Positions 5,368 through 24,690 of a DNA stretch of 45,704 nt are shown piece by piece; positions within the stretch are counted from its first letter, which is position 1; every line of letters begins with the position of its first letter. A program made the position numbers and the translations under genes. The notes below the pieces were generated by a model that did not search any database, had not been told where the DNA came from, and saw only the letters and a list, made by a program, of their open reading frames with translations. The DNA is from Tepidibacillus decaturensis (GTDB lineage: Bacteria; Bacillota; Bacilli; Tepidibacillales; Tepidibacillaceae): positions 93,829-139,532 of the forward strand of contig NZ_LSKU01000001.1 in NCBI RefSeq assembly GCF_001561915.1. Direction: 5' to 3'.

Positions 5368-6927
5368 ATGATGGCAGAAACAACAGCAAATATTGGATTT
5401 GAGGAAACATTATGGAAAGCGGCCGATAAGCTGAGAGGCAGTATGGATGCGAGTGAATACAAACATGTCGTGCTAGGACTTATTTTCCTTAAATACATTT
5501 CAGATAAATTTGAAACGAAATATAATGAACTCGTTGCTGAAGGGGAAGGTTTTGAGGAAGAGTTAGACGAATACCTTTCAGAAAATATTTTCTGGGTACC
5601 GAAAGAAGCCAGATGGAATTACATCAGAGACAATGCAAAAAGTGAAAAAATCGGGCAGATGATCGATGATGCTATGATTCTCATTGAAAAAGAGAACAAG
5701 ACATTAAAAAATGTACTTGAAAAGCGTTATGCCAGACCAGAAATAGATAAGAGAAGACTAGGTGAACTTATTGATTTAATTTCTACAATAAAGCTACATA
5801 CAAAAGAAGAAAAGGACCTCTTAGGTAGAGTTTATGAATACTTCCTTGGTAAATTTGCAGACGCAGAAGGTAAAGGCGGTGGAGAATTCTATACACCTAC
5901 TTCTGTTGTTAAAACTTTAGTTGAAATGATTGAACCATTTAAAGGTCGTATTTATGACCCTTGCTGTGGTTCTGGGGGTATGTTTGTTCAAAGCGAAAAA
6001 TTTATTGAAGAACATCAAGGAAAGTTAACTGACCTAGCCATCTATGGACAAGAACTTAACGTTACTACATGGAAACTATGTAAAATGAACTTGGCCATTC
6101 GAGGATTAGAAGGCAATATTGGACCGGAACATGCAGATACGTTTCACAATGACCTTCATAAAAATGTGAAAGCCGATTATATTCTCGCCAATCCACCTTT
6201 TAATATCAGCGATTGGGGCGGAGAGAAATTAAAAGATGATGTCAGATGGGCTTATGGTATACCGCCAGCAGGGAATGCAAACTATGCATGGCTTCAACAT
6301 ATGATTTATCATTTATCACCCAATGGCATAGCAGGAATTGTTCTTGCAAATGGGGCATTAAGCTCCAATACTTCCAATGAAGGAGAAATCCGAAAAAATA
6401 TACTGGAAGCGGATCTCGTAGATTGTATTGTGGCCATGCCGGATAAACTCTTCTATTCTACTGGAATTCCAGTATCTCTATGGATTCTCAATCGAAACAA
6501 AAAAGGCAATACAAAACATAGAAACAGAGAAAAAGAAATTCTCTTTATTGATGCAAGAAATCTTGGAGAAATGATCGATCGTAGACATAGAGAATTAAAA
6601 GAAGAAGATATTAGAAAAATTGCAGATACCTATCATCAATGGAGAAACTTGAATAATGGAGAATTGAGAATTGAGAATGGAGAGTCAAAAGAGTACGAAG
6701 ATATAAAAGGCTTTTGTAAGTCGGTAAAGCTTGAAGAAGTTAGAGAACATGACTATGTTCTAACCCCAGGTAGATATGTAGGAATAGAAGAAGCAGAAGA
6801 GGATGGAGTTTCATTTGAAGAGAAGATGGAAAAACTGACTAGCGAACTCGGAGAGCTATTTGAAAAGTCACGCCACCTAGAAGAGGAGATTAGAAAGAAT
6901 CTAGGGGGGATTGGGTATGAGTTCTAA
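5368..6927 (+). CDS. hsdM: Type I restriction-modification DNA methyltransferase subunit HsdM
   Basis: N6-adenine methyltransferase of the HsdR2M2S complex; transfers methyl from S-adenosylmethionine to the recognition sequence. The 519 residues show the helical N-terminal HsdM domain (residues 1-150), the SAM-binding motif YDPCCGSGG (about 194-202) and the catalytic NPPF at 275-278. The start is ATG 5368 (or 5371) after AAGGGGAGAG. It overlaps the hsdS start. Residues near 430-443 ([11 protein letters not shown]) come from a small direct repeat in the DNA and look like an in-frame insertion into a variable loop before the C-terminal region. Confidence 0.93.
6653..6684 (+). repeat. GAATTGA/GAATGGA short tandem repeat inside hsdM
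   Basis: Quasi-tandem copies of a 7-9 base unit (AATGGAGAATTGAGAATTGA then GAATGGAGAG) within the coding sequence. The translated loop is low-complexity and absent from my memory of typical HsdM proteins at this place, where a short GGY-type turn precedes EDIKGF. Frame is kept. Confidence 0.5.
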
Positions 6928-8161
6928 TGAGTGGAAAGAGTACAAATTATCAGAGATAATGAATATTTTTGGGGGAGGTACACCAAGAACTACTGTTTCA
7001 GAGTATTGGAACGGTGATATTCCTTGGCTTTCAGTTAAAGACTTTAACACTGATGATAGAACCGTATATAAAACTGAAAAAAATATTACACAACTCGGAT
7101 TGGAAAATAGCTCTACAAGATTATTAGATAAAGGTGATTTAGTCATTTCAGCAAGAGGGACAGTTGGAGCAATTGCTCAGCTTGGAAAACCAATGGCTTT
7201 TAATCAATCATGTTATGGGTTAAGGGCTAATGAGCTAACTACCAATGATTATCTTTATTATTTGTTAAAATATAAAATTAAAAGTATTAGGCAAAATACT
7301 CATGGTTCAGTATTTGATACTATAACAAGAGACACATTTGAAATATTAAAGGTTAACTTGCCTAAGAATATCAAAGAACAAAAAGCCATTGCACACATAC
7401 TCTCAACCCTAGACGAAAAAATCGAAGTCAACAACCAAATCAACAAAACCATTGAAGCTATGGCTCAGGCAATCTTTAAACATTGGTTTGTAGATTTTGA
7501 ATTTCCGAATGAAAATGGAGAACCATACAAATCCAGCGGTGGTGAAATGGTTGAAAGTGAATTAGGGATGATTCCAAAGGGATGGGAGGTATCAAATCTT
7601 AGTAGAATTGCATATATCACAATGGGGCAATCACCTAAAGGAACTAGTTATAATGAAGATGGCTTTGGTGAAGTGTTTTATCAAGGACGAACTGATTTTG
7701 GCGATCGATTTCCAATAAGAAGATTATATACTACTGAACCCAAAAGAATGGCAAAATTAGGCGATGTTTTAATGAGTGTCAGAGCACCTGTTGGAGATAT
7801 TAATATTGCTTATGAAGATTGTTGTATTGGTCGAGGACTGTGCTCAATAAGAAATAAAAGTGGCTACAGTTCTTACATGTACTATTTAGTGCTGAGTCTT
7901 AAAGACAAATTAAGTGTATATAATGGTGAAGGTACTGTGTTTGGATCAATTAATAAGGATGCATTGAACAATATAGTTATAGTTAAGCCGGATAATTCTA
8001 TAGTTGATATATTCAATAAAATCGCATCTAGCTTAGATCAACAATATTTATGTCTTGTAAAAGAAAATAGAAATTTAGTAGTGATTAGAGACACCCTCCT
8101 ACCAAAACTCATGTCAGGAGAAATCAGAGTACCACTTGATCAAGAAGGTGAAGTATCATGA
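6917..8161 (+). CDS. hsdS: Type I restriction specificity subunit HsdS
   Basis: DNA-recognition subunit with two target recognition domains: TRD1 (about 1-150, starting with the typical [10 protein letters not shown] ... GGGTPRT pattern), a central coiled coil ([18 protein letters not shown], about 155-195), TRD2 (about 205-380, starting [10 protein letters not shown]) and a second helix ending [14 protein letters not shown]. The two conserved helices act as the spacer that sets the distance between half sites. The ATG at 6917 is chosen because AGGGGGG lies 8 bases upstream; it overlaps the end of hsdM, which indicates translational coupling. Both TRDs are intact. Confidence 0.92.
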
Positions 8162-8361
8162 AATTTGGAATGAGGAAACCGAGTTTAAAGAAAAGAATTG
8201 CGGCGAGGACGAGCATCAAAAGACAACTTGTTCATCGAGCAGGACTCAAAATGCCGAGAGGTTATGGCTGGTTAAGAAATCCAAAGAAATACGCATATAA
8301 CAAGGTCTACAATAGAACCACTTTTGATATTTTTAAACTCATAAAGAAACTGTTTAAATAA
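8158..8361 (+). CDS. Small highly basic protein between hsdS and hsdR
   Basis: A 67-residue protein rich in Lys and Arg (KPSLKKRIAARTSIKRQL, then RGYGWLRNPKKYAYNKVYNR). It overlaps the last bases of hsdS (ATGA overlap at 8158-8161) and is followed after 25 bases by hsdR, so it is translated as part of the operon. I do not recognise a characterised family; the composition suggests nucleic-acid or phosphate-backbone binding. An accessory role in the restriction complex, or an anti-restriction or phage-derived origin, are open guesses. No membrane segment. Confidence 0.65.
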   Translation: MKFGMRKPSLKKRIAARTSIKRQLVHRAGLKMPRGYGWLRNPKKYAYNKVYNRTTFDIFKLIKKLFK

Positions 8362-8386
8362 TGGGATTAAAAAGGGGGAACTACCT

Positions 8387-11300
8387 TTGAGTTTATCCGA
8401 AACTTTTACAGAAGAAATGCTTGAAGAGGCGGCAATCGAGATTTTAGGCGAATTAGGATATGAACATCGATTTGGTCCAGATATTGCCTTTGATGGCGAA
8501 GCACCTGAACGCAAAGATTATAAAGAAGTCATTTTAGAAAATCGAGTAAAAGATGCCCTTTTTCGAATCAACAAGGATATTCCGAGAGCCGCTCTTGAAG
8601 ATGCATTTCGACAGGTTATCACGTTCAATAGTCCTTCTTTAGTTGAAAACAACCACCACTTTCATAAGCTTCTGACGGAAGGAATCGAAGTGTCCTTTAA
8701 GGAAAAAGATCTAATCCGAACCAAAAGAGCATATTTAGTAGATTTTGAACATATGGATCGAAATGATTTTCTAGTCGTCAATCAATTTACGATTTTGGGA
8801 CTAGAAAATAGAAGACCAGACCTAATTCTCTTTATTAATGGACTCCCGCTTGTTGTCATTGAGCTAAAGTCTGCATCCGATGAGAATGTGGGAATTGAAA
8901 ATGCGTATCATCAAATCCAAACCTATAAAAAAGATATTGAAAGTCTCTTCCATTACAATGCCTTCTGTATCATTTCTGATGGAATCAACGCTAAGGCAGG
9001 GACCATCACTTCCAATTTGGAGCGTTTTATGAATTGGAGAAGTGAGGATGGGGTGAATGTTGCCCCTCTTACCATCCCTCAATACGAAACCCTATTTAGA
9101 GGAATGTTAGCAAAGGAAAGAATTCTAGATATTATTTCGAATTTCATTCTTTTTCAAGAATCCAAGTCCAGTGATTATGATCAACAGGGTAAAAAAATAG
9201 GAGATAAGAAGTCTCTGATCAAAATCCTAGCTGCTTATCATCAGTATTTTGCTGTGAAAAAAGCAATAGAGAAGACAAAAATTGCAACAAGTGAAACTGG
9301 TGATCGGAGAATTGGGGTCATTTGGCATACGCAAGGTTCAGGAAAGAGCTTTTCCATGGTCTTTTATACCGCAGGACTTGTAAAGGAACTGAATAACCCG
9401 ACAATTATCATCATTACAGATCGAAATGACTTAGATGATCAGCTATACACCACCTTTGCAAAATCAAAGGAGATTTTACGACAAGAACCAAAGCAGGCTC
9501 ATATTCGGAGATTGACAGAGGAACAAAAGAAATCCCAAGCAAAAGATCATTCAAGGGAACTCAATGGACTTTATGATTTGCTCAATGAAAGAGAATCGGG
9601 TGGAATCATCTTCACAACCATTCAAAAGTTTAAACCAGAAGAAGGCGAAATGCCTGTTCTAACTGATCGCCGGAATGTCATTATTATTGCCGATGAAGCT
9701 CATCGAAGTCAGTATGGCTTAGATGCCAAAACTAATTTGAAAACAGGTGATGTGAAATTCGGTTATGCCAAATATATGAGAGACGCACTTCCTAATGCTT
9801 CTTTTATTGGGTTTACAGGAACCCCGATTGAGTTTGAAGACAAATCGACTCCAGCCGTATTTGGCGATTACATCGATATCTATGATATGACTAGAGCTGT
9901 GGAAGATAAAGCAACGGTTAAAATTTACTATGAAAATCGAATCATTAAGCTAGAAGCAGATGAGGATGTATTAAAAGAATTAGACACTGAGTTTGAAGAA
10001 ATCACAGAAGGTCAAGAAGAAATAGAAAGAGAAAAGAACAAGGCCAAGTGGTCAAGAATTGAAGCCATCGTCGGTTCGCCAAACCGCATCAAAAAGTTAG
10101 CGGAAGACATCGTCAATCACTATGAAGCCAAAGCAGAAGTGATGGATGGAAAAGCGATGGTCGTATGTATGAGTCGGAGAATTGCCGTCGACTTGTATGA
10201 TGCGATTACAGCCTTAAGACCGGAGTGGCATAGTGATGATGTAAACAAAGGGAAAATCAAAATTGTCATGACAGGTAGTGCTGCTGATGAAGAAAGGCTT
10301 CAAAAGCATGTTGGGGGGAAACAAAGACGGGACACATTAGCCAATCGGATGAAGGATAATAACGATGAGTTGAAAATTGTTATTGTTCGGGATATGTGGC
10401 TTACAGGTTTTGATGTACCTTCCATGCATACCATGTATATTGATAAGCCAATGAAGGGGCATAATCTGATGCAGGCGATTGCTCGAGTGAATCGAGTCTT
10501 TAAAGACAAAGAGGGTGGCGTCGTTGTTGATTATATCGGTATTTTGGAAAGCTTAAAAAGAGCCCTAAAAGAATATACAGACAGTGATAAGAAAAATATC
10601 GGTATTGATACTTCATCAGCGATTGCGATTATGCTTGGAAAACTAGAAGTATTAAGAGGAATGTTCCATGGCTTAGATTATTCCGATTATATGGGTCAGT
10701 CTCAAGTCAAACGCATTCGAGCCATTACAACGGGAATGGACTTTGTATTATCCATGAGTGAGAAAGAGCAAAAAGATTTTAAACAGTTTGTTACTGAACT
10801 TGGTAAGGCCCATGGACTCTGTGCCGCAACAGAAGAAGGAAAGGCCATCGCTTTAGAAGTCAGTTATTTTAAATCGGTAAAGGCAAGTTTAGTAAAGCTT
10901 GAAACAAAAGGCAAAAGTGCATTATCGAAAGCAGAGATTGAACAAAGAGTCAATCAAATGCTGGAAAGATCAATCATTTCAGAAGAAGTCATTGATGTGT
11001 TTGAAGCAATAGGGTTGAAACGTCCGGATGTATCCATTCTTGATGAGGAGTTTCTTGAAGAAGTGAAGGCATTAAAAACGAAAAATTTGGCATTAGAGAT
11101 GTTGAAAAAACTTCTTCAGGGCGAAATCAAAGTCATGGAACGAAGCAATTTGGTTAAATCGGAACTCTTCTCTGAAAAGCTTAAGAAAGCACTTAACAAA
11201 TACACAAACCAAGCAATAACGAATGCAGAAGTGATCGAAGAACTGATTAGAATGGCGAAAGAGATGAAAAAGATGCATGAAGAAGAAGAAAAGCTCGGAC

Positions 11301-11644
11301 TCAACAAAGACGAAATCGCTTTTTACTATGCTCTTTCAAAAGACGAAGTGGCCAGAGAATTTTACGATGATGAGACGCTGAAAAAGATTGCACAAGAACT
11401 AACAGATTCTATTCGACGAAACGTGACGATCGATTTTAATGTAAGAACCCAAGCCCAGGCAACCATGAGAAAAATAATCAGAAGATTGCTAAAAAAATAT
11501 GATTATCCACCAGAGCAAGCAATGGAAGCCTTAAATGTGGTGATGAAACAGGTGGATTTAATGTGCAGTAATGAAGCATTTACCTATGATCAAATGATTG
11601 ATATACCATTAGCTGCTGAAGAAAAAAGACAATATGAGTTCTAA
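8387..11644 (+). CDS. hsdR: Type I restriction endonuclease subunit HsdR
   Basis: Motor and nuclease subunit, 1085 residues, usual size for the family. The N-terminal PD-(D/E)XK nuclease region shows RPDLILFINGLPLVVIELKS (E-L-K at the active site, about 144-165). The SF2 translocase follows: Walker A QGSGKS near residue 315-320, DEAH at 436-439, FTGTPIEF (motif III), and the C-terminal motifs TGFDVPSMHTMY and QAIARVNRVF. The C-terminal helical part (about 780-1085) docks onto the methyltransferase. It starts with TTG at 8387, preceded by AAAGGGGG. No frameshift seen, so the restriction system appears complete. Confidence 0.94.
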   Translation: MSLSETFTEEMLEEAAIEILGELGYEHRFGPDIAFDGEAPERKDYKEVILENRVKDALFRINKDIPRAALEDAFRQVITFNSPSLVENNHHFHKLLTEGIEVSFKEKDLIRTKRAYLVDFEHMDRNDFLVVNQFTILGLENRRPDLILFINGLPLVVIELKSASDENVGIENAYHQIQTYKKDIESLFHYNAFCIISDGINAKAGTITSNLERFMNWRSEDGVNVAPLTIPQYETLFRGMLAKERILDIISNFILFQESKSSDYDQQGKKIGDKKSLIKILAAYHQYFAVKKAIEKTKIATSETGDRRIGVIWHTQGSGKSFSMVFYTAGLVKELNNPTIIIITDRNDLDDQLYTTFAKSKEILRQEPKQAHIRRLTEEQKKSQAKDHSRELNGLYDLLNERESGGIIFTTIQKFKPEEGEMPVLTDRRNVIIIADEAHRSQYGLDAKTNLKTGDVKFGYAKYMRDALPNASFIGFTGTPIEFEDKSTPAVFGDYIDIYDMTRAVEDKATVKIYYENRIIKLEADEDVLKELDTEFEEITEGQEEIEREKNKAKWSRIEAIVGSPNRIKKLAEDIVNHYEAKAEVMDGKAMVVCMSRRIAVDLYDAITALRPEWHSDDVNKGKIKIVMTGSAADEERLQKHVGGKQRRDTLANRMKDNNDELKIVIVRDMWLTGFDVPSMHTMYIDKPMKGHNLMQAIARVNRVFKDKEGGVVVDYIGILESLKRALKEYTDSDKKNIGIDTSSAIAIMLGKLEVLRGMFHGLDYSDYMGQSQVKRIRAITTGMDFVLSMSEKEQKDFKQFVTELGKAHGLCAATEEGKAIALEVSYFKSVKASLVKLETKGKSALSKAEIEQRVNQMLERSIISEEVIDVFEAIGLKRPDVSILDEEFLEEVKALKTKNLALEMLKKLLQGEIKVMERSNLVKSELFSEKLKKALNKYTNQAITNAEVIEELIRMAKEMKKMHEEEEKLGLNKDEIAFYYALSKDEVAREFYDDETLKKIAQELTDSIRRNVTIDFNVRTQAQATMRKIIRRLLKKYDYPPEQAMEALNVVMKQVDLMCSNEAFTYDQMIDIPLAAEEKRQYEF

Positions 11645-11657
11645 AACATCCAGAAGG

Positions 11658-11983: not shown

Positions 11984-12341
11984 TTGAAAAAAAATCAGTA
12001 AAGAAACAGGAGAACATTATATATGGGGATCGAATTGTGATGGATGGCATCTCCTAAAACAAGAGGATTTAAGTATCATTCATGAGAGAATGCCTCCAGG
12101 TACTGAAGAGGCACGACATTATCATAATAAATCAAGACAATTCTTTTTTATTCTTTATGGTAAAGCAATAATTGAAATTAATGGAGAAATACATGAATTA
12201 AATCAGTTGGAAGGCATTGAAATCCATCCACAAACACCTCATCAAATATTAAATAGAACGTCCAACGATATTGAATTTTTAGTTATCTCGCAACCAACAA
12301 CAATAGGCGATAGAATATTAGTTCATGAAGAGAAACTCTAG
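11984..12341 (+). pseudogene. Cupin-domain protein, frameshifted in a poly-A run (cassette 0)
   Basis: A TTG at 11984 after AAAGGAAG is followed by eight As (11987-11994). As sequenced, the frame closes after four codons. With seven As it would read KKISKETGEHYIWGSNCDGW and continue without a break into MPPGTEEARHYH ... HPQTPHQILN and stop at 12341. The body is a single cupin beta-barrel with metal-ligand-type residues (RHYHNKSRQFF, then HPQTPH). The in-frame ATG at 12090 would remove the first strands and has no ribosome binding site. It could be a real null allele, a phase-variable tract or a base-calling error. Confidence 0.7.
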
Positions 12342-12365
12342 TTATTCAGAGATGTCAGGTACTTC

Positions 12366-12506
12366 GGCTAACACCGTATTCACGCATCGCAGCCTGACGG
12401 CTGCTCGGTTCGCCCGGGGCATTTTGAGAAAGAAGATTCAGGCGGACAACCCTGCGACTTCGTCGCCTTAAGCCTCTCGGGTTCGTGAATACAGAGAACG
12501 TTATGC
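12366..12506 (+). repeat. attC-like site A (long form)
   Basis: R'' GGCTAAC (12366-12372), ACC, arm GTATTCACG (12376-12384), a 99-base structured G+C-rich loop with further internal palindromes, arm CGTGAATAC (12484-12492), AGAGAAC, R' GTTATGC (12500-12506). It is about twice the length of the other sites, as seen in variable-length attC families. Confidence 0.7.
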
Positions 12507-12552
12507 GCAATTACATTATGTGCTTTTCTAATTAGCTAGTAAGGAGAACATG

Positions 12553-13359
12553 ATGGAGATGGATAAAATTAATAAAGCTCTGAAGTTAATAGAAGCTAGT
12601 GCGAGTATTACAGGTAGCGCAGTGGGTGTAGCAGCTGGAGGACTGTTGGCAGGACCGCCTGGAGCGTTTGCGGGTGCTTTAGCGGGGGCGTCAATTACTG
12701 AGATCTTAAAATATATAGGAAGTGAGATGTACGATAGGAAACTATCAATGGGCGAACGTGAAATGGCTAGAATTGGGGCTGCTCTAGTCTATTCAATAGA
12801 AAAGATTCATTCAAACGTCATGCTTGGCTTAAGGGTAAGAGAAGATGATTTCTTTTCTAAGACAGACAAGTCAAAGTTATCAAAAGCTGAAGAGCTTTTG
12901 GAAGGTACATTGTCTAAAGCAAAGAGCTGTTATGAAGAGAAAAAGGTTAAGTACATTGGTAATATATACGGTAATCTTCCCTTTTTTGCATTTATTGATA
13001 GTTATATGGCTTATCAACTAATTAACTTTGCAGAGAGACTCACTTATAGACAGCTATGTATAATGGCAATGATTAAGAAAATAGAGGAGTACAATCTCTC
13101 ACAGGAAGATTACAGAGGAAGCAAACAAATTAACGTGCAGCTTGCCTTTTTACTTAGAGAAATTGTTGAGTTAATGGATTTAAATCTAGGACATGTAATC
13201 CAAAAAAACAATACGGATTCTGAAGTGATTTTTGGACTTACAGATATATCACCAGGAAGATTGAGATTAAACCCACTCGGAAACTCGTTGTATTTGGTAA
13301 TGAGTTTAGATGAAATTGAAGATGAAGATATTAATCGTGTGGTTAGTTTGTTTAGGTAA
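12553..13359 (+). CDS. Unidentified protein with glycine-rich hydrophobic segment (cassette 1)
   Basis: About 268 residues. Near the N-terminus (residues 15-55) lies a Gly/Ala-rich hydrophobic stretch, GSAVGVAAGGLLAGPPGAFA then GALAGASITEIL, resembling glycine-zipper membrane segments. The rest is mixed charged and helical (about 60-200), ending in a small beta-rich part (RLRLNPLGNSLYLV). I do not recognise the family. AAGGAG at 12541-12546 gives a six-base spacing to ATG 12553 (an ATG at 12550 is closer). It is the only gene of its cassette. By position with HEPN proteins and a restriction operon, a membrane-acting defence effector is possible, but this is a guess. Confidence 0.75.
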   Translation: MEMDKINKALKLIEASASITGSAVGVAAGGLLAGPPGAFAGALAGASITEILKYIGSEMYDRKLSMGEREMARIGAALVYSIEKIHSNVMLGLRVREDDFFSKTDKSKLSKAEELLEGTLSKAKSCYEEKKVKYIGNIYGNLPFFAFIDSYMAYQLINFAERLTYRQLCIMAMIKKIEEYNLSQEDYRGSKQINVQLAFLLREIVELMDLNLGHVIQKNNTDSEVIFGLTDISPGRLRLNPLGNSLYLVMSLDEIEDEDINRVVSLFR

Positions 13360-13363
13360 CTGC

Positions 13364-13437
13364 GCATAACACAGGATTCCCTCAACTTCGCCAACATGAA
13401 AGCGGGATGACGCTGCGGGAATCCTTAAACGTTAGGT
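13364..13437 (+). repeat. attC-like site B
   Basis: R'' GCATAAC (13364-13370, inside TGCGCATAAC), AC, arm AGGATTCCC (13373-13381), a loop containing AACTTCGCCAACATGAA and GCGGGATGACG, arm GGGAATCCT (13417-13425), TAAAC, R' GTTAGGT (13431-13437). The R'' end is the reverse complement of GTTATGCGCA at 12500-12509, the start of the same cassette. Confidence 0.75.
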
Positions 13438-13477
13438 GAAATACGGCTGTTTGGTGAACGTAAGGAGTTGTGAATAG

Positions 13478-14020
13478 ATGGACTATGATGAAAAGGTTCT
13501 TTCCAGGCAATATCCCGTAGTTAAAGATTTTGTCTACCATTATATTGCTTATCGAGAGTTAAATAATGCTTATAAAGAATTTACTAAGTCAACGGACTTT
13601 TGGATTTTTACAATGAATGCGCATCTATTGCAGGCGGCAATTTGTTGGTGTATGGTCTTTGGTTCTGATAGATCGAACCCTATACATTGGAAAAATCTAA
13701 ATATCAATGAAAAGGATAATCTGTCGAACTGGTTTCGTAGCGAGCTTACGGAGTATTTAAATATAGATGAGGAAGAATGGGAAAGTTATTGGAAAAGTAT
13801 GGTTACCTTTAGAAATAGGTTTGTTGCTCATCGAGAGTTAACTTTTCAAGACCCTGTCCCATATTTTGAAACTGCATATAAGGTTGCACTATTTTATGAT
13901 CAGTGGGTTAGGAAAATAGTGTATCCTGATTTATTTGACTTAATTGATCTTGAAGAAGTAGCGAATAAATTTAGAGTCCAGACAAGTGAATTAGTTGAAA
14001 GGGTTAGGGCGGGCATCTAG
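13478..14020 (+). CDS. HEPN-like protein, AbiU2-type (cassette 2)
   Basis: A 180-residue, mostly helical protein with FRNRFVAHRE at about residue 119-128, i.e. the R-(x)5-H motif of the HEPN ribonuclease superfamily, with a polar residue after the Arg as in active members. The general layout (helical bundle, late R-N-x-x-x-A-H, then FETAYKVALFYDQW) recalls AbiU2-like HEPN proteins in abortive-infection systems. It starts at ATG 13478 after AAGGAG. It is the sole gene of its cassette with no obvious antidote partner beside it. Ribonuclease activity is inferred from the motif only. Confidence 0.7.
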   Translation: MDYDEKVLSRQYPVVKDFVYHYIAYRELNNAYKEFTKSTDFWIFTMNAHLLQAAICWCMVFGSDRSNPIHWKNLNINEKDNLSNWFRSELTEYLNIDEEEWESYWKSMVTFRNRFVAHRELTFQDPVPYFETAYKVALFYDQWVRKIVYPDLFDLIDLEEVANKFRVQTSELVERVRAGI

Positions 14021-14033
14021 GGAGCCCTACTTC

Positions 14034-14111
14034 ACCTAACAGCGAATTCCCGACATTTAGAGGATAATTCGAGCGGGTTGGGACGCGTCGGGAATTCACG
14101 GGACGTTATCG
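14034..14111 (+). repeat. attC-like site C
   Basis: R'' ACCTAAC (14034-14040, inside TTCACCTAAC), AGC, arm GAATTCCCGAC (14044-14054), a 32-base loop containing GAGCGGGTTGGGACGC, arm GTCGGGAATTC (14087-14097), ACGGGAC, R' GTTATCG (14105-14111). R'' is the reverse complement of GTTAGGTGAA at 13431-13440; weaker complementarity extends to about 18 of 20 bases. Confidence 0.75.
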
Positions 14112-14187
14112 GAAAGATGAGGCAAGGCCGCCGCATCCTGCGACGGATTATCAAGAGAGAGCATTATGAATTGAAAAGGTGATGTTC

Positions 14188-15036
14188 ATGAGAATACAAA
14201 AGATACTTAATGAACAGCAACTCAAGGCGGTATGTGATGTTATAGCAGATACAAACCGAGGACTTACAAAAACAGAGTTGTCAAGGTTACTGGAACAGTG
14301 TCAAATTCAACTTGTTGACGATGGGAAGTCTAGTAATGGTTATACATATACAATAGGATTAAACAAGAGGGACTGGCTTTATAATTGTTTCGTAAATGAA
14401 ATCAATAAACGGCATACATTTGAAAGAATATATTTATTTATCGAGAAAGTACTAAATCCAGTCGCGTATACGAGTGAATCCAGTAGAGAAAAGTATAATT
14501 TTCTTTTTGAAGGAACAAATAAAGCGCTATTGATGGCAGGATTATCCGTGTCCAAAGAGGGAGTACTTAATGAGGTTGTGGAAGCTAAAACTCTTGATGA
14601 GGTTGATAGGCGAGTAAATAATCTAAGAAGACATCTTTATAATAGAGCCATTCACCACGAGGTCGAGAAATATTGCATCAAGGATTACTTACAAAAGGAT
14701 TATTATGATGCTGTATTTGAAGCGGCTAAGGGTTTAGCAGAACGGGTTCGTCAAATTACTGGTTTAACTTCGGATGGTTCTGCATTGTTCCAAAAAGCTT
14801 TTGCAAAGAATGACCCCTATATCTTTTTCAATTCACTGAAGACTGAAAGTGAAATTAATGAGTATACAGGATTAAAAGAACTATTAGAATCGATATTTCA
14901 TTTGGTTAGAAATCCTGCAGCACATACCCCAAAAGTAAACTGGAAAATGGATGAAACAAAGGCTTTAGATATTTTAACGTTGATATCTTTTTCGCATAAA
15001 TATTTAGATGAATGCCATAAAGTGCCTAGGAGTTAG
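14188..15036 (+). CDS. TIGR02391 (Ymh) family HEPN-type protein (cassette 3)
   Basis: About 282 residues. The N-terminal part (1-110) has a predicted winged or helical region (LNEQQLKAVCDVIAD, LTKTELSRLLEQC) seen in AbiJ-like proteins; the C-terminal part (150-280) matches the TIGR02391 family: DYYDAVFEAAKGLAERVR, TGLTSDGSALF, and FHLVRNPAAHTPK with the HEPN R-(x)4-H signature. Family members occur widely in defence contexts and as stand-alone genes. The ATG at 14188 fits AAAGGTGA five bases upstream better than GTG 14179 or ATG 14182. A tail hairpin GTGCGAC/GTCGCAC (15056-15074) follows the gene inside the cassette. Confidence 0.8.
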   Translation: MRIQKILNEQQLKAVCDVIADTNRGLTKTELSRLLEQCQIQLVDDGKSSNGYTYTIGLNKRDWLYNCFVNEINKRHTFERIYLFIEKVLNPVAYTSESSREKYNFLFEGTNKALLMAGLSVSKEGVLNEVVEAKTLDEVDRRVNNLRRHLYNRAIHHEVEKYCIKDYLQKDYYDAVFEAAKGLAERVRQITGLTSDGSALFQKAFAKNDPYIFFNSLKTESEINEYTGLKELLESIFHLVRNPAAHTPKVNWKMDETKALDILTLISFSHKYLDECHKVPRS

Positions 15037-15099
15037 TTGGAATAATTGCTAAAGGGTGCGACGTCCTGTCGCACTCTGGCTTCGGGGGCCTCATCCTTC

Positions 15100-15174
15100 C
15101 GATAACAAGGTGTTCCCGTAACTTCGTTAATATGAATATAGTATGACGATGCGGAAACACCTAGAACGTTATCT
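15100..15174 (+). repeat. attC-like site D (last site)
   Basis: R'' CGATAAC (15100-15106), AA, arm GGTGTTCCCG (15109-15118), a loop containing TAACTTCGTTAATATGAA and ATGACG, arm CGGAAACACC (15152-15161; one mismatch), TAGAAC, R' GTTATCT (15168-15174). The 19 bases ending the cassette (15088-15106) are the reverse complement of its start at 14105-14123 with one mismatch. Confidence 0.75.
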
Positions 15175-15202
15175 GAAAGATCAGAAGAAACAGGGTGATA
15201 AT

Positions 15203-15253: not shown

Positions 15254-15352
15254 TTGTTGGGCATTTGTTTGGAGAATTGAAGCAAAAAGAAAGGGATGTA
15301 GTATTTTACGAATGATTAGAATATAATAATAGAAAAAGGGGAGTTGTTATTC

Positions 15353-15598
15353 ATGCCAAATATCAAACCCATCTCCGATTTAAGGAATTACAATGAAGTT
15401 CTACGTGATATTGCCATAGGTAAACCAGTATCTTTAACTAAAAATGGTAGAGGAAAATTTGCCATTGTCGATATTAATGAATATGAAAAATTAAAGGCTT
15501 CGCTGAAGCTGATGTCACAGCTTGTCCAGGGAGAGTTCGCTGGAAAAGAAAAAGGATGGATGACTATCGAGGAAGTGGAAGCAGAATTGGGTATCTGA
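15353..15598 (+). CDS. Phd/YefM-type antitoxin
   Basis: An 81-residue protein with the Phd/YefM pattern: ISDLRNYNEVLRDI, then GKPVSLTKNGRGKFAIVDI and a variable acidic C-terminal helix. Such proteins bind DNA as dimers through the N-terminal half and wrap a toxin with the C-terminal half. The ATG at 15353 follows AAAAGGGGAG. No RelE/ParE-type toxin follows; the next gene, 190 bp on, is a Fic protein with its own inhibitory motif. It is therefore an orphan antitoxin or an unusual partner of the Fic gene. A TATAAT at 15322 may be its -10 box. Confidence 0.8.
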   Translation: MPNIKPISDLRNYNEVLRDIAIGKPVSLTKNGRGKFAIVDINEYEKLKASLKLMSQLVQGEFAGKEKGWMTIEEVEAELGI

Positions 15599-15789
15599 GC
15601 ATCCTGGCATACCCCAAAGTATAGTTGCTGTACATATCTTATTTTACTATAGTAGATCCCTTTTGGAAATTAATCTCTTCTCTTTATCTGATAGTGAACT
15701 GTTTTGCTAGAATAGTCTATACCCTAGAAAACCCCGTCTGAGTTCACTAAAATTGTGGTATAATAAAACAAATAATGTAAAAAAGAGGG

Positions 15790-16596
15790 ATGTACTTGGA
15801 ACGATATAGACAGATTATTCAGCTATGGCAGTCTTACAAAATTACATCTGCTGCTGATTTAGATAAATATCTTGATAGCTTTCGAATCCTATTTGCGTTT
15901 CATTCTGGGAAAATAGAAAACGAAGAAGTTACCTATCATGATACAAGGGAAATTTTTGAAAATGGTAGAGTGGTTAACTATACAGGAAGCCCTCGTGCCT
16001 TATTTGAACAACAAAATCAAAAGTTATGTTACGAGGTATTGAAAGAAAAAATTGTACAGAAGGAGCCCCTTAGCATAGAGTTAGTCAAGGAGATTCATAA
16101 GGTTCTTACAAGTGGAACATATGATGAGCGTAGGTATATTGCAAATCTAGAGCGACCTGGCGAGTTTAAAAAGCATGATTATGTAACTGGATTCTATGAG
16201 GTTGGTTCCGCTGTGGAAAATGTGGAAAGAGAAATGGAAGAGTTGATTGCAGAAGTAAACGATTATGAGGGAAAGGATGCCTTAAAGGCTGCAACTTATC
16301 TTCACGCAAGGTTTGAGTTTATCCATCCCTTTGCTGACGGTAATGGACGTGTCGGCAGAACGCTTATGAACTATTATCTCATGATACATAATCACCCGCC
16401 CCTTATCGTCTATGACGAAGATAAGCGGATATATTATGAGTGCCTGCAAAAATATGATGAAACTGAGGATCTAAACCCTTTGTATGAGTTTTTCAAATAT
16501 GAAGTGGAAAAAACATGGGAAAAGACGTTGGCACTTGCCAATGGCATAAATCAGGAGCGCAAAGGCTTGTCAGAATTAGAGGATAAACTTTTTTAG
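15790..16596 (+). CDS. Fic domain protein (AMP-transferase family), class II-like
   Basis: A 268-residue protein with the full Fic motif HPFADGNGRVGR (His 179). It also carries an N-terminal inhibitory motif SGKIEN at residues 39-44, matching (S/T)xxxE(G/N), so Glu 43 should block ATP binding by auto-inhibition. Fic enzymes transfer AMP or other phosphate-containing groups onto hydroxyl residues of target proteins. ATG at 15790 abuts the purine-rich site; TTG at 15796 is an alternative with better spacing. A likely -10 (TATAAT) is at 15759-15764. It may form a two-gene unit with the DUF6429-like gene 12 bases downstream. Confidence 0.88.
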   Translation: MYLERYRQIIQLWQSYKITSAADLDKYLDSFRILFAFHSGKIENEEVTYHDTREIFENGRVVNYTGSPRALFEQQNQKLCYEVLKEKIVQKEPLSIELVKEIHKVLTSGTYDERRYIANLERPGEFKKHDYVTGFYEVGSAVENVEREMEELIAEVNDYEGKDALKAATYLHARFEFIHPFADGNGRVGRTLMNYYLMIHNHPPLIVYDEDKRIYYECLQKYDETEDLNPLYEFFKYEVEKTWEKTLALANGINQERKGLSELEDKLF

Positions 16597-16851: not shown

Positions 16852-17188
16852 ATTTGAAATTCTAAGTTCAAATATTAGCGATGGAAAAGAATACGTTGAA
16901 GAAATTGCAGTGATCGGACCTGTTTCAGATCAAAAAGCTACAAGACATTGTTGATGATATTGGTATTAGAGTTACCATTGAAGATGAAATTGTCACTTCA
17001 TATGGAATAGGTGGCAAAGAGCATTCTTTTGTAAAAATTGTGGATTCTATTAAAATTGGGGAATTTCAAATAAATAATGTTTATCTAGATTTTTCGTCAT
17101 TAGAGATCACGATATTAATGGTTTGTTAGGTTTAGATATATTGATAAAAGGTGGATATATTGTTGACACCACAAAGATTAACTGTTAG
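16852..17188 (+). pseudogene. Broken retropepsin-like aspartic protease gene
   Basis: Pieces of a small retropepsin-like protein lie in different frames: KFEILSSNISDGKEYVEEIA, then LQDIVDDIGIRVTIEDEIVT, SYGIGGKEHSFVKIVDSIKI, and, after another shift, RDHDINGLLGLDILIKGGYI. The order and the GLLGLD(I/F)L motif are typical of the family, but the active-site D-T-G segment is missing where the first shift occurs. At least two indels or deletions are needed, so this is a dead gene. Confidence 0.65.
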
Positions 17189-24269: not shown

Positions 24270-24497
24270 ATGCGAATTAAAATTGAGGTGGTTAATTCTG
24301 TTTTTAATTCTTATTCATCGCCATTTGATAGGTTAAGTCAGAGGGATTTCCAAAACTTTGCTAATATAGGGGAGCAACTGTTTCTTCTTTATGATGAGGG
24401 CTACATAACTGTCGGCGAAATAATAGATTGTTACATAGAATCGGCTATCAAGGGCGGTTGGCTCATCTCCAGAGAGGAGGTGATGCTATGGAAGTAA
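24270..24497 (+). CDS. Small unidentified protein overlapping the toxin peptide
   Basis: About 75 residues: MRIKIEVVNSVFNS, then RLSQRDFQNFANIGEQLFLL, EIIDCYIESAIKGGWLIS and EEVMLWK. No family recognised; composition is ordinary, with alternating hydrophobic and charged residues. The start is uncertain (ATG 24270 lacks a clear ribosome site; TTG 24246 is an alternative). Its last codons contain the GGAGGTGATGCT ribosome site and ATG of the downstream toxin-like peptide, so the two overlap. Confidence 0.4.
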   Translation: MRIKIEVVNSVFNSYSSPFDRLSQRDFQNFANIGEQLFLLYDEGYITVGEIIDCYIESAIKGGWLISREEVMLWK

Positions 24498-24559
24498 AGG
24501 ACGCTTTAATTCTGATGTTCATGTTCGGCATGTTCATCTTAGCTTACTTTCCTACTTGA
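24488..24559 (+). pseudogene. Hol_Tox-type small hydrophobic toxin peptide, probably frameshifted
   Basis: A very strong site (GAGGAGGTGATGCT) precedes ATG 24488. The product MEVKDALILMFMFGMFILA is a single membrane helix of the 'putative holin-like toxin' family. As sequenced it ends YFPT-stop. If one T is restored near 24546 it would read ...LALLSYLKNK and stop at TAG just before the GTAGACCTCC hairpin, which is the ending expected for the family and is also encoded in the second copy at 29561. So this copy has probably lost one base. Confidence 0.6.
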
Positions 24560-24565
24560 AAAACA

Positions 24566-24690
24566 AGTAGACCTCCCTTGAGCTCGGAAAGCTTGGAGGT
24601 CTACCATCCACTTTCTATAGGTCGAACGCCTTTGAGGCAATCTATTGTAAGACCGTAGATCCTGCAACATCTGCGGTCTTTATAAGTTTA
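24566..24690 (-). ncRNA. Probable antisense antitoxin RNA region of the type I toxin locus
   Basis: Downstream of the toxin lie two stem-loops: GTAGACCTCC (24567-24576) with GGAGGTCTAC (24595-24604), and GACCGTAGAT/ATCTGCGGTC (about 24651-24679). The same arrangement, with GGCAATCTATTGTA between, is repeated at 29599-29700. In type I systems of this sort a convergent RNA from the opposite strand overlaps the toxin 3' end. Strand and extent are inferred. Confidence 0.4.

Follow-up and report, generated by a model that had tools for sequence, protein, structure and literature searches.

Organization of the cassette cluster

The window analysed here is a stretch of 45,704 nucleotides (45.7 kb) of the Tepidibacillus decaturensis genome. 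It contains four attC-like sites, called A to D, and one co-oriented gene lies between each two consecutive sites (Table 1). The bases following the GTTA of one site are complementary to those preceding the TAAC of the next site; wrong pairings among the four sites reach only 8-14 of 20. Complementary ends are a trait of integron cassettes, because both ends derive from one circle. This feature, absent from an earlier note on this DNA, is the strongest evidence for an integron-type reading.

Table 1 Features of the cassette cluster, with positions in the window. Complementarity is counted between the bases after the first GTTA and those before the next TAAC.
Feature	Position	Strand	Remarks
Cupin gene upstream of site A	12012..12341	+	Pfam Cupin_2 1e-12
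Site A, long attC-like site	12363..12513	+	R'' TAAC 12369-12372; R' GTTA 12500-12503
Cassette 1	12501..13431	+	from the TTA of site A to the G of site B; ends (A-B) complementary 16/20
Cassette 1 gene	12550-13359	+	269 aa; no confident family (Pfam, PADLOC)
Site B, short attC-like site	13361..13444	+	R' GTTA from 13431; R2 E 1e-10; covariation
Cassette 2	13432..14105	+	ends (B-C) complementary 16/20
Cassette 2 gene	13478-14020	+	180 aa; resembles AbiU2/HEPN weakly (Pfam E 0.02, short of the cut-off)
Site C, short attC-like site	14031..14118	+	R' GTTA from 14105; R2 E 3e-14; covariation
Cassette 3	14106..15168	+	ends (C-D) complementary 18/20
Cassette 3 gene	14179-15036	+	285 aa; Hypoth_Ymh, Pfam 2e-40; PADLOC PD-Lambda-3_B, 2e-63
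Site D, short attC-like site	15097..15181	+	R' GTTA from 15168; R2 E 2e-12; covariation

The PADLOC model matched by the cassette 3 protein is a phage-defence model. The cupin gene probably belonged to an older cassette, with site A at its end. In a search for the start of this cassette, no upstream R' partner for site A scored above chance. Similarly, the best match to an attI upstream of A in the window (11/14) is at chance level. A type I restriction-modification system with its M, S and R genes all present (5368-11644) lies directly upstream of the cluster. A Phd/YefM-type antitoxin gene and a Fic-family gene (15344-16596) are found just downstream of site D. Elsewhere, the window carries a BsrG-type type I toxin-antitoxin RNA (24432-24675; Rfam RF01412, 84 bits) and a c-di-GMP-I riboswitch (662-749; 64 bits).

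Scanning the window for stem/GTT patterns placed B, C, D and A among the top matches, each on the + strand; further high-scoring matches do not have the flanks. The covariance model R2 rests on six sites taken from elsewhere (Acididesulfobacillus, Desulfosporosinus, Alkaliphilus and an uncultured Firmicute) and used no window sequence. Searched against the window up to E 10, it returned the four sites and one other match, the reverse strand of D (E 0.15). Site A (R2 E 2e-5; 34 bits with model R1) belongs to the class of the Paenibacillaceae sites. No Rfam family matches these sites.

The T. decaturensis genome (99% complete, 3 contigs) encodes no integrase of the HARP-type/IntI-like family described below and no IntI above its cut-off. 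The window thus holds a cassette cluster without integrase, equivalent to a CALIN (cluster of attC sites lacking an integrase). Besides A-D, the genome contains one weak degenerate match to the site model (G000:C1:1868330-1868401, E 0.08). Its reverse strand reads CCCAGGACGTTATCTGAAAGAG and its first 13 R' bases are the same as those of site D; it is possibly a degenerate site or a cassette start. The Xer-like and trio recombinases of the genome were rejected as the enzyme of the cluster, as they do not lie near the array and have Xer-like scores. One Xer-like recombinase spans two open frames of 216 and 114 aa (G000:C1:896954-897843), the match being interrupted by one TAA, and may represent a pseudogene, an assembly error or a frameshift. 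At G000:C1:2072931-2075707, three consecutive tyrosine recombinase genes share a strand and resemble a recombinase-in-trio element. The family and order were covered by five genomes. The sister genomes G001 and G004 carry the integrase and further sites. A contig assigned to T. decaturensis (L145) encodes the same integrase as G001, which is from the window's own family.

Structure of the sites

In the sites, AAC and GTT are constant. GTTA forms the core, and the bases behind it are free (GTTATGC, GTTAGGT, GTTATCG, GTTATCT). The attC cores RYYYAAC and GTTRRRY are not found as a rule, and only some sites fit GTTRRRY. The arms pair in a fixed register, set at 4 nt after TAAC and 7 nt before GTTA. 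In this register, 84% of the pairs over eight positions are Watson-Crick, versus 15-33% in unrelated registers. Across 80 distinct arm pairs, the pairing score is 5.61/8, as compared with 4.54 (sd 0.11) after shuffling. In a canonical attC, the R''-L'' arm carries an extrahelical base, a G in L'' (PMC2727003). No such base, which could set the strand in use, was observed in the first 8-11 arm pairs of the present sites, aligned bulge-free in the fixed register.

The earlier note had proposed to look for covariation in the arms, and it is present. In an alignment of nine short sites, B, C and D among them, built without structure and with the register then picked to fit, 94.8% of positions are paired, 6 of 11 pairs are changed on both sides, and covariation is 0.51 versus 0.15 for shuffled arms. 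The 90-nt class of Paenibacillaceae folds as a cloverleaf with four helices, in which 14 of 25 pairs are double-changed, although such an RNA-style pairing count is the same for a single strand or a cruciform. Sliding the pairing partner abolishes the covariation signal of this class.

The earlier note also described words shared by the loops. AACTTCG-nn-AA-n-ATGAA and ATGACG-n-TGC are indeed present in both B and D, as read directly from the sequence. The 35-nt loops of B and D are identical at 24 of 35 positions, with an alignment score of 13 versus -10.0 (sd 3.4) for shuffled loops (0/5000 shuffles as high). The likeness is weaker between B and C (42/5000 shuffles as high) and not significant between C and D (1864/5000). 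As to GCGGG-n-TG-n-GACGC, said to be common to B and C, it is found in C (GCGGGTTGGGACGC); B reads GCGGGATGACGC, 2 bases shorter, and shares the word only if an indel is allowed. The nearest sequence to the C loop word is that of an Acididesulfobacillus site, AAGCGGGTTGGGACGCGTC (L135:12471). The earlier note suggested that the unpaired or terminal structure is recognised, which is a possibility at most. Loops are kept within groups and free to vary between groups, with a 35-nt version, a three-hairpin cloverleaf and versions of 110-190 nt.

Arrays in related bacteria

The site-A pattern was found in 30 of 398 Bacilli genomes, with up to 15 copies per genome, mostly in same-strand clusters. 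The reversed control pattern gave almost no matches in these genomes. Many of the arrays have at their 5' end a gene for an IntI-like tyrosine recombinase, in the orientation of the array. A scan of species genomes with the recombinase core yielded 80 named loci, mostly in Paenibacillaceae and Clostridia. They include Paenibacillus, Saccharibacillus, Cohnella, Fontibacillus, Gorillibacterium, Desulfosporosinus, Clostridium, Acididesulfobacillus, Halonatronum, Alkaliphilus and others. Genes of the integrase family occur in about one in ten of the Bacillota sampled (38/398 genomes, 32/267 genera).

The arrays are strongly polar. In the 80 integrase loci, 204 sites are downstream of the integrase on the same strand, one is upstream and none is on the opposite strand. 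These sites were identified by their flanking motifs only, whether or not the arms pair. Pairing of cassette ends also recurs: 138 neighbouring pairs of sites in other loci match at 4.39 of 6 positions, versus 3.12 (sd 0.07) after permutation. The cassette units have a median length of 904 bp, and their longest ORF is on the array strand in 121 cases and on the opposite strand in 11.

The reading of the repeats as integron-type sites, put forward in the earlier note, is borne out by these data: B, C and D delimit cassettes, and the sites of relatives lie behind an integron-type integrase with an attI. Further copies, which the note had asked for, are numerous in relatives; in the T. decaturensis genome the search ended with A-D and the one degenerate match. 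T. decaturensis itself, with four sites and no integrase, thus does not have a complete chromosomal integron.

Several loci deserve mention. On a Chryseobacterium plasmid (NZ_CP041688.1; L201:5980-10230), a HARP-type integrase is followed by cassette-like genes and sites. Two pairs of complementary ends are visible, GTTATACGAT at ~7302 with ATCGTATAAC at 8381, and GTTACCAG at ~9394 with CTGGTAAC at ~10229. This locus indicates that the system is present in Bacteroidota too, on a plasmid. In Acididesulfobacillus acetoxydans (L135:11646-18145), with an array of the short site type, the sites at 11646 and 12471 recur inverted at 17110 and 18075, so that the array is partly duplicated in inverted orientation; a further site is at 15798. 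A Cohnella herbarum plasmid (NZ_CP051681.1; L003:14692-19592) carries type-A-like sites beside three tyrosine recombinase genes. On Sinorhizobium and Rhizobium plasmids (L202, L207), related recombinases directly precede IS91-family transposase genes, which is another use of IntI-like enzymes.

The attI site

In most loci, a GTTA is located ~100-130 bp past the integrase stop codon, and the bases that follow fit the R'' of the first cassette. The fit reaches at least 9/12 positions in nearly all loci examined, a score that is by itself biased as this GTTA was picked as the best fit. In Paenibacillaceae, a conserved stretch such as cgaagttcgtaaataagac precedes the GTTA. An independent test came from species comparison. 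In 64 species pairs, with identity of up to 95% across integrase and attI, the alignment ends 4-28 nt past the start of GTTA, most often at 11-13 nt; one pair ends 4 nt before it. Since homology ends just past the attI GTTA, the first cassettes differ, from species to species and directly from attI onward. Comparison of these genomes supports the insertion of cassettes at attI.

The array recombinase

The solved structure closest to the array recombinase is that of VchIntIA (PDB 2a3v). Residues 178-239 of 2a3v, which hold the IntI-specific domain, face only ~20 residues of the array recombinase. This additional domain of IntI corresponds to the alpha-I2 and beta-4,5 region (PMC3053210) and is absent from all 38 rows of our integrase alignment. 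Six array integrases score 189-239 bits with TIGR02249 (IntI), below the curated cut-off of 265, and 201-228 with NF040815, about its cut-off of 220. Catalytic residues are intact and conserved. In the tree, IntI forms one clade (100/99) and the Bacillota enzymes another (26 rows, 83/81), both apart from Xer (88/92). The array integrases adjoin IntI in a branching order without resolution, IntI being represented by few sequences, all gammaproteobacterial.

The N-terminal domain of ~75 residues is predicted with a pLDDT of 90 and shows five strands and two helices. Its sequence profile has as best PDB match the HARP domain of SMARCAL1 (4o66, E 0.009). With Pfam HARP (PF07443), 14 of 33 members match at E up to 0.1 (best 2.6e-4); P0005 scores 14.9 bits, under the gathering score of 25 bits. 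UvsW, among the top matches, and XPB are structural neighbours. Foldseek alone gave no significant HARP match (4o66 at rank 12, E 0.75), so the HARP assignment rests on the sequence profile and the topology. The HARP domain consists of five strands and two helices, occurs in SMARCAL1 and UvsW and acts on junction DNA (PMC4666394). By analogy, the HARP-type domain, in place of the IntI-specific domain, may contribute to binding of the hairpin or of the junction between its single and double strands. It was found in 70 of 81 loci and was absent or not found in 11, most of which are distant relatives without arrays. L108, L125 and L157 have arrays and no HARP-type domain was found in them; the domain may therefore not be required.

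Interpretation of the locus

We consider it highly probable that the window contains a small integron-type cassette cluster without its own integrase, and that in relatives an IntI-related recombinase inserts cassettes at attI with crossover at G^TTA. Each cassette comprises a short leader, one co-oriented gene and one site; its first bases are the TTA of the preceding site, and its last base is the G of the site that it carries. If such a unit were excised, R'' and R' would pair in the circle so formed. The tyrosine recombinase of relatives would join the attI behind its gene to the folded site, with the crossover at G^TTA. The array would thereby grow in one orientation, and cassettes could be excised between sites. 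By analogy with known integrons, the substrate may be the folded single strand of the site. Cassette units, polarity of the sites, covarying arms, linkage of integrase, attI and array, and species-specific cassettes starting at attI are established at the level of sequence. In T. decaturensis itself, the cluster is probably a relic or dependent on an integrase supplied in trans.

The most serious alternative is that cassettes are moved as duplex DNA, in the manner of Xer or phage sites, with the palindrome binding two integrase protomers and no folding. The enzyme gives some weight to this idea, as it is without the domain by which IntI reads extrahelical bases and its catalytic part is XerA-like. 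Yet the covarying arms of free sequence and the double-changed helices of the cloverleaf suggest a folded strand, and attI and the sites are structurally unlike each other, as in an attI x attC reaction; we regard double-stranded exchange as unlikely. Considerably less probable still is the reading which takes the hairpins for cassette sites of a canonical IntI integron and the window for an ordinary CALIN derived from it. The layout R''-spacer-stem-spacer-R', the GTT core, the cassette units and the attI would all match, and CALINs, though few, are on record for Firmicutes (PMC9024848). However, the linked integrases are without the IntI-specific domain, fall short of the TIGR02249 cut-off and, in the tree with its few gammaproteobacterial IntI, lie outside the IntI clade; the paired arms show no extrahelical base and the core is GTTA, not always GTTRRRY.

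Finally, intergenic position, foldability and the lack of an Rfam family would also suit other repeats resembling attC, such as REP-like elements, terminators or targets of IS200/IS605-type transposases. This origin is extremely improbable given the complete polarity behind one gene, the complementarity of cassette ends and the end of homology at attI; for REP elements and terminators, it was rejected on polarity and cassette ends.

Discussion

As judged from sequence, A-D are recombination sites of mobile cassettes, of a widespread and apparently undescribed kind of Bacillota integron. As in sedentary chromosomal integrons (e.g. Vibrio cholerae) and in class 1 integrons, the relatives have an integrase gene beside attI and an array of co-oriented single-gene cassettes. 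Their sites, like those of known integrons, are imperfect inverted repeats and have a GTT core; the cassettes have complementary ends and are species-specific, again as in known integrons. In class 1 integrons the integrase gene is divergent from the array, whereas in the Bacillota lineage it runs in the array direction. Other differences from known integrons are an integrase without the IntI-specific domain, usually with a HARP-type N-terminal domain, paired arms in which no extrahelical base shows, and hosts that are mainly Bacillota. With its four sites and three cassettes in a genome without integrase, the window resembles a CALIN; unlike known CALINs, its sites are of the Bacillota lineage and not of a known IntI lineage.

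The catalytic domain without the IntI insertion is like that of XerA, XerC, XerD and NF040815 ('site-specific tyrosine recombinase/integron integrase'). Unlike Xer, the array integrases are linked to attI and a cassette array, have a C-terminal SPLD motif as in IntI and carry the HARP-type domain; in the tree they are outside the XerC/XerD group. Their N-terminal domain has the five strands and two helices of the HARP domain of SMARCAL1 and UvsW, fork-remodelling enzymes, and matches 4o66 and PF07443, but it is joined to a tyrosine recombinase where those enzymes have an SF2 motor. The lineage fails to show two features that define IntI and two that define attC. It does show the system-level features that can be tested, in relatives an integrase beside attI and a cassette array, one-gene co-oriented cassettes with complementary ends and, as judged from species comparison, cassette insertion at attI. 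We therefore class it as an integron variant and not with the IntI family.

Integrons are described as extremely rare in Firmicutes; the IntegronFinder 2 survey has a single complete one, that of Limnochorda pilosa (PMC9024848). In an integron-like subgroup, the insertion 'is not fully conserved' (PMC8138268), a remark which indicates that relatives lacking it had already been seen as sequences. We found no earlier account of such Bacillota integrons in the open-access literature, preprints aside, and no open-access paper naming both 'HARP domain' and 'integrase'.

Tentatively, and with somewhat less than even confidence, we propose a second way to recombine folded single-stranded DNA. The lineage may never have had the IntI-specific domain, or may have lost it. 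Its HARP-type domain would read hairpin or cloverleaf sites, and the enzyme would run large unrecognised integrons across Bacillota, with relatives in Bacteroidota. IntI is recognised by its extra domain. If the sites recombine, soil and plant-associated bacteria have a large system of gene capture that a definition resting on domains has missed. The reading of a folded strand by an integrase would then gain a natural comparison, with sites similar in outline and another recognition domain.
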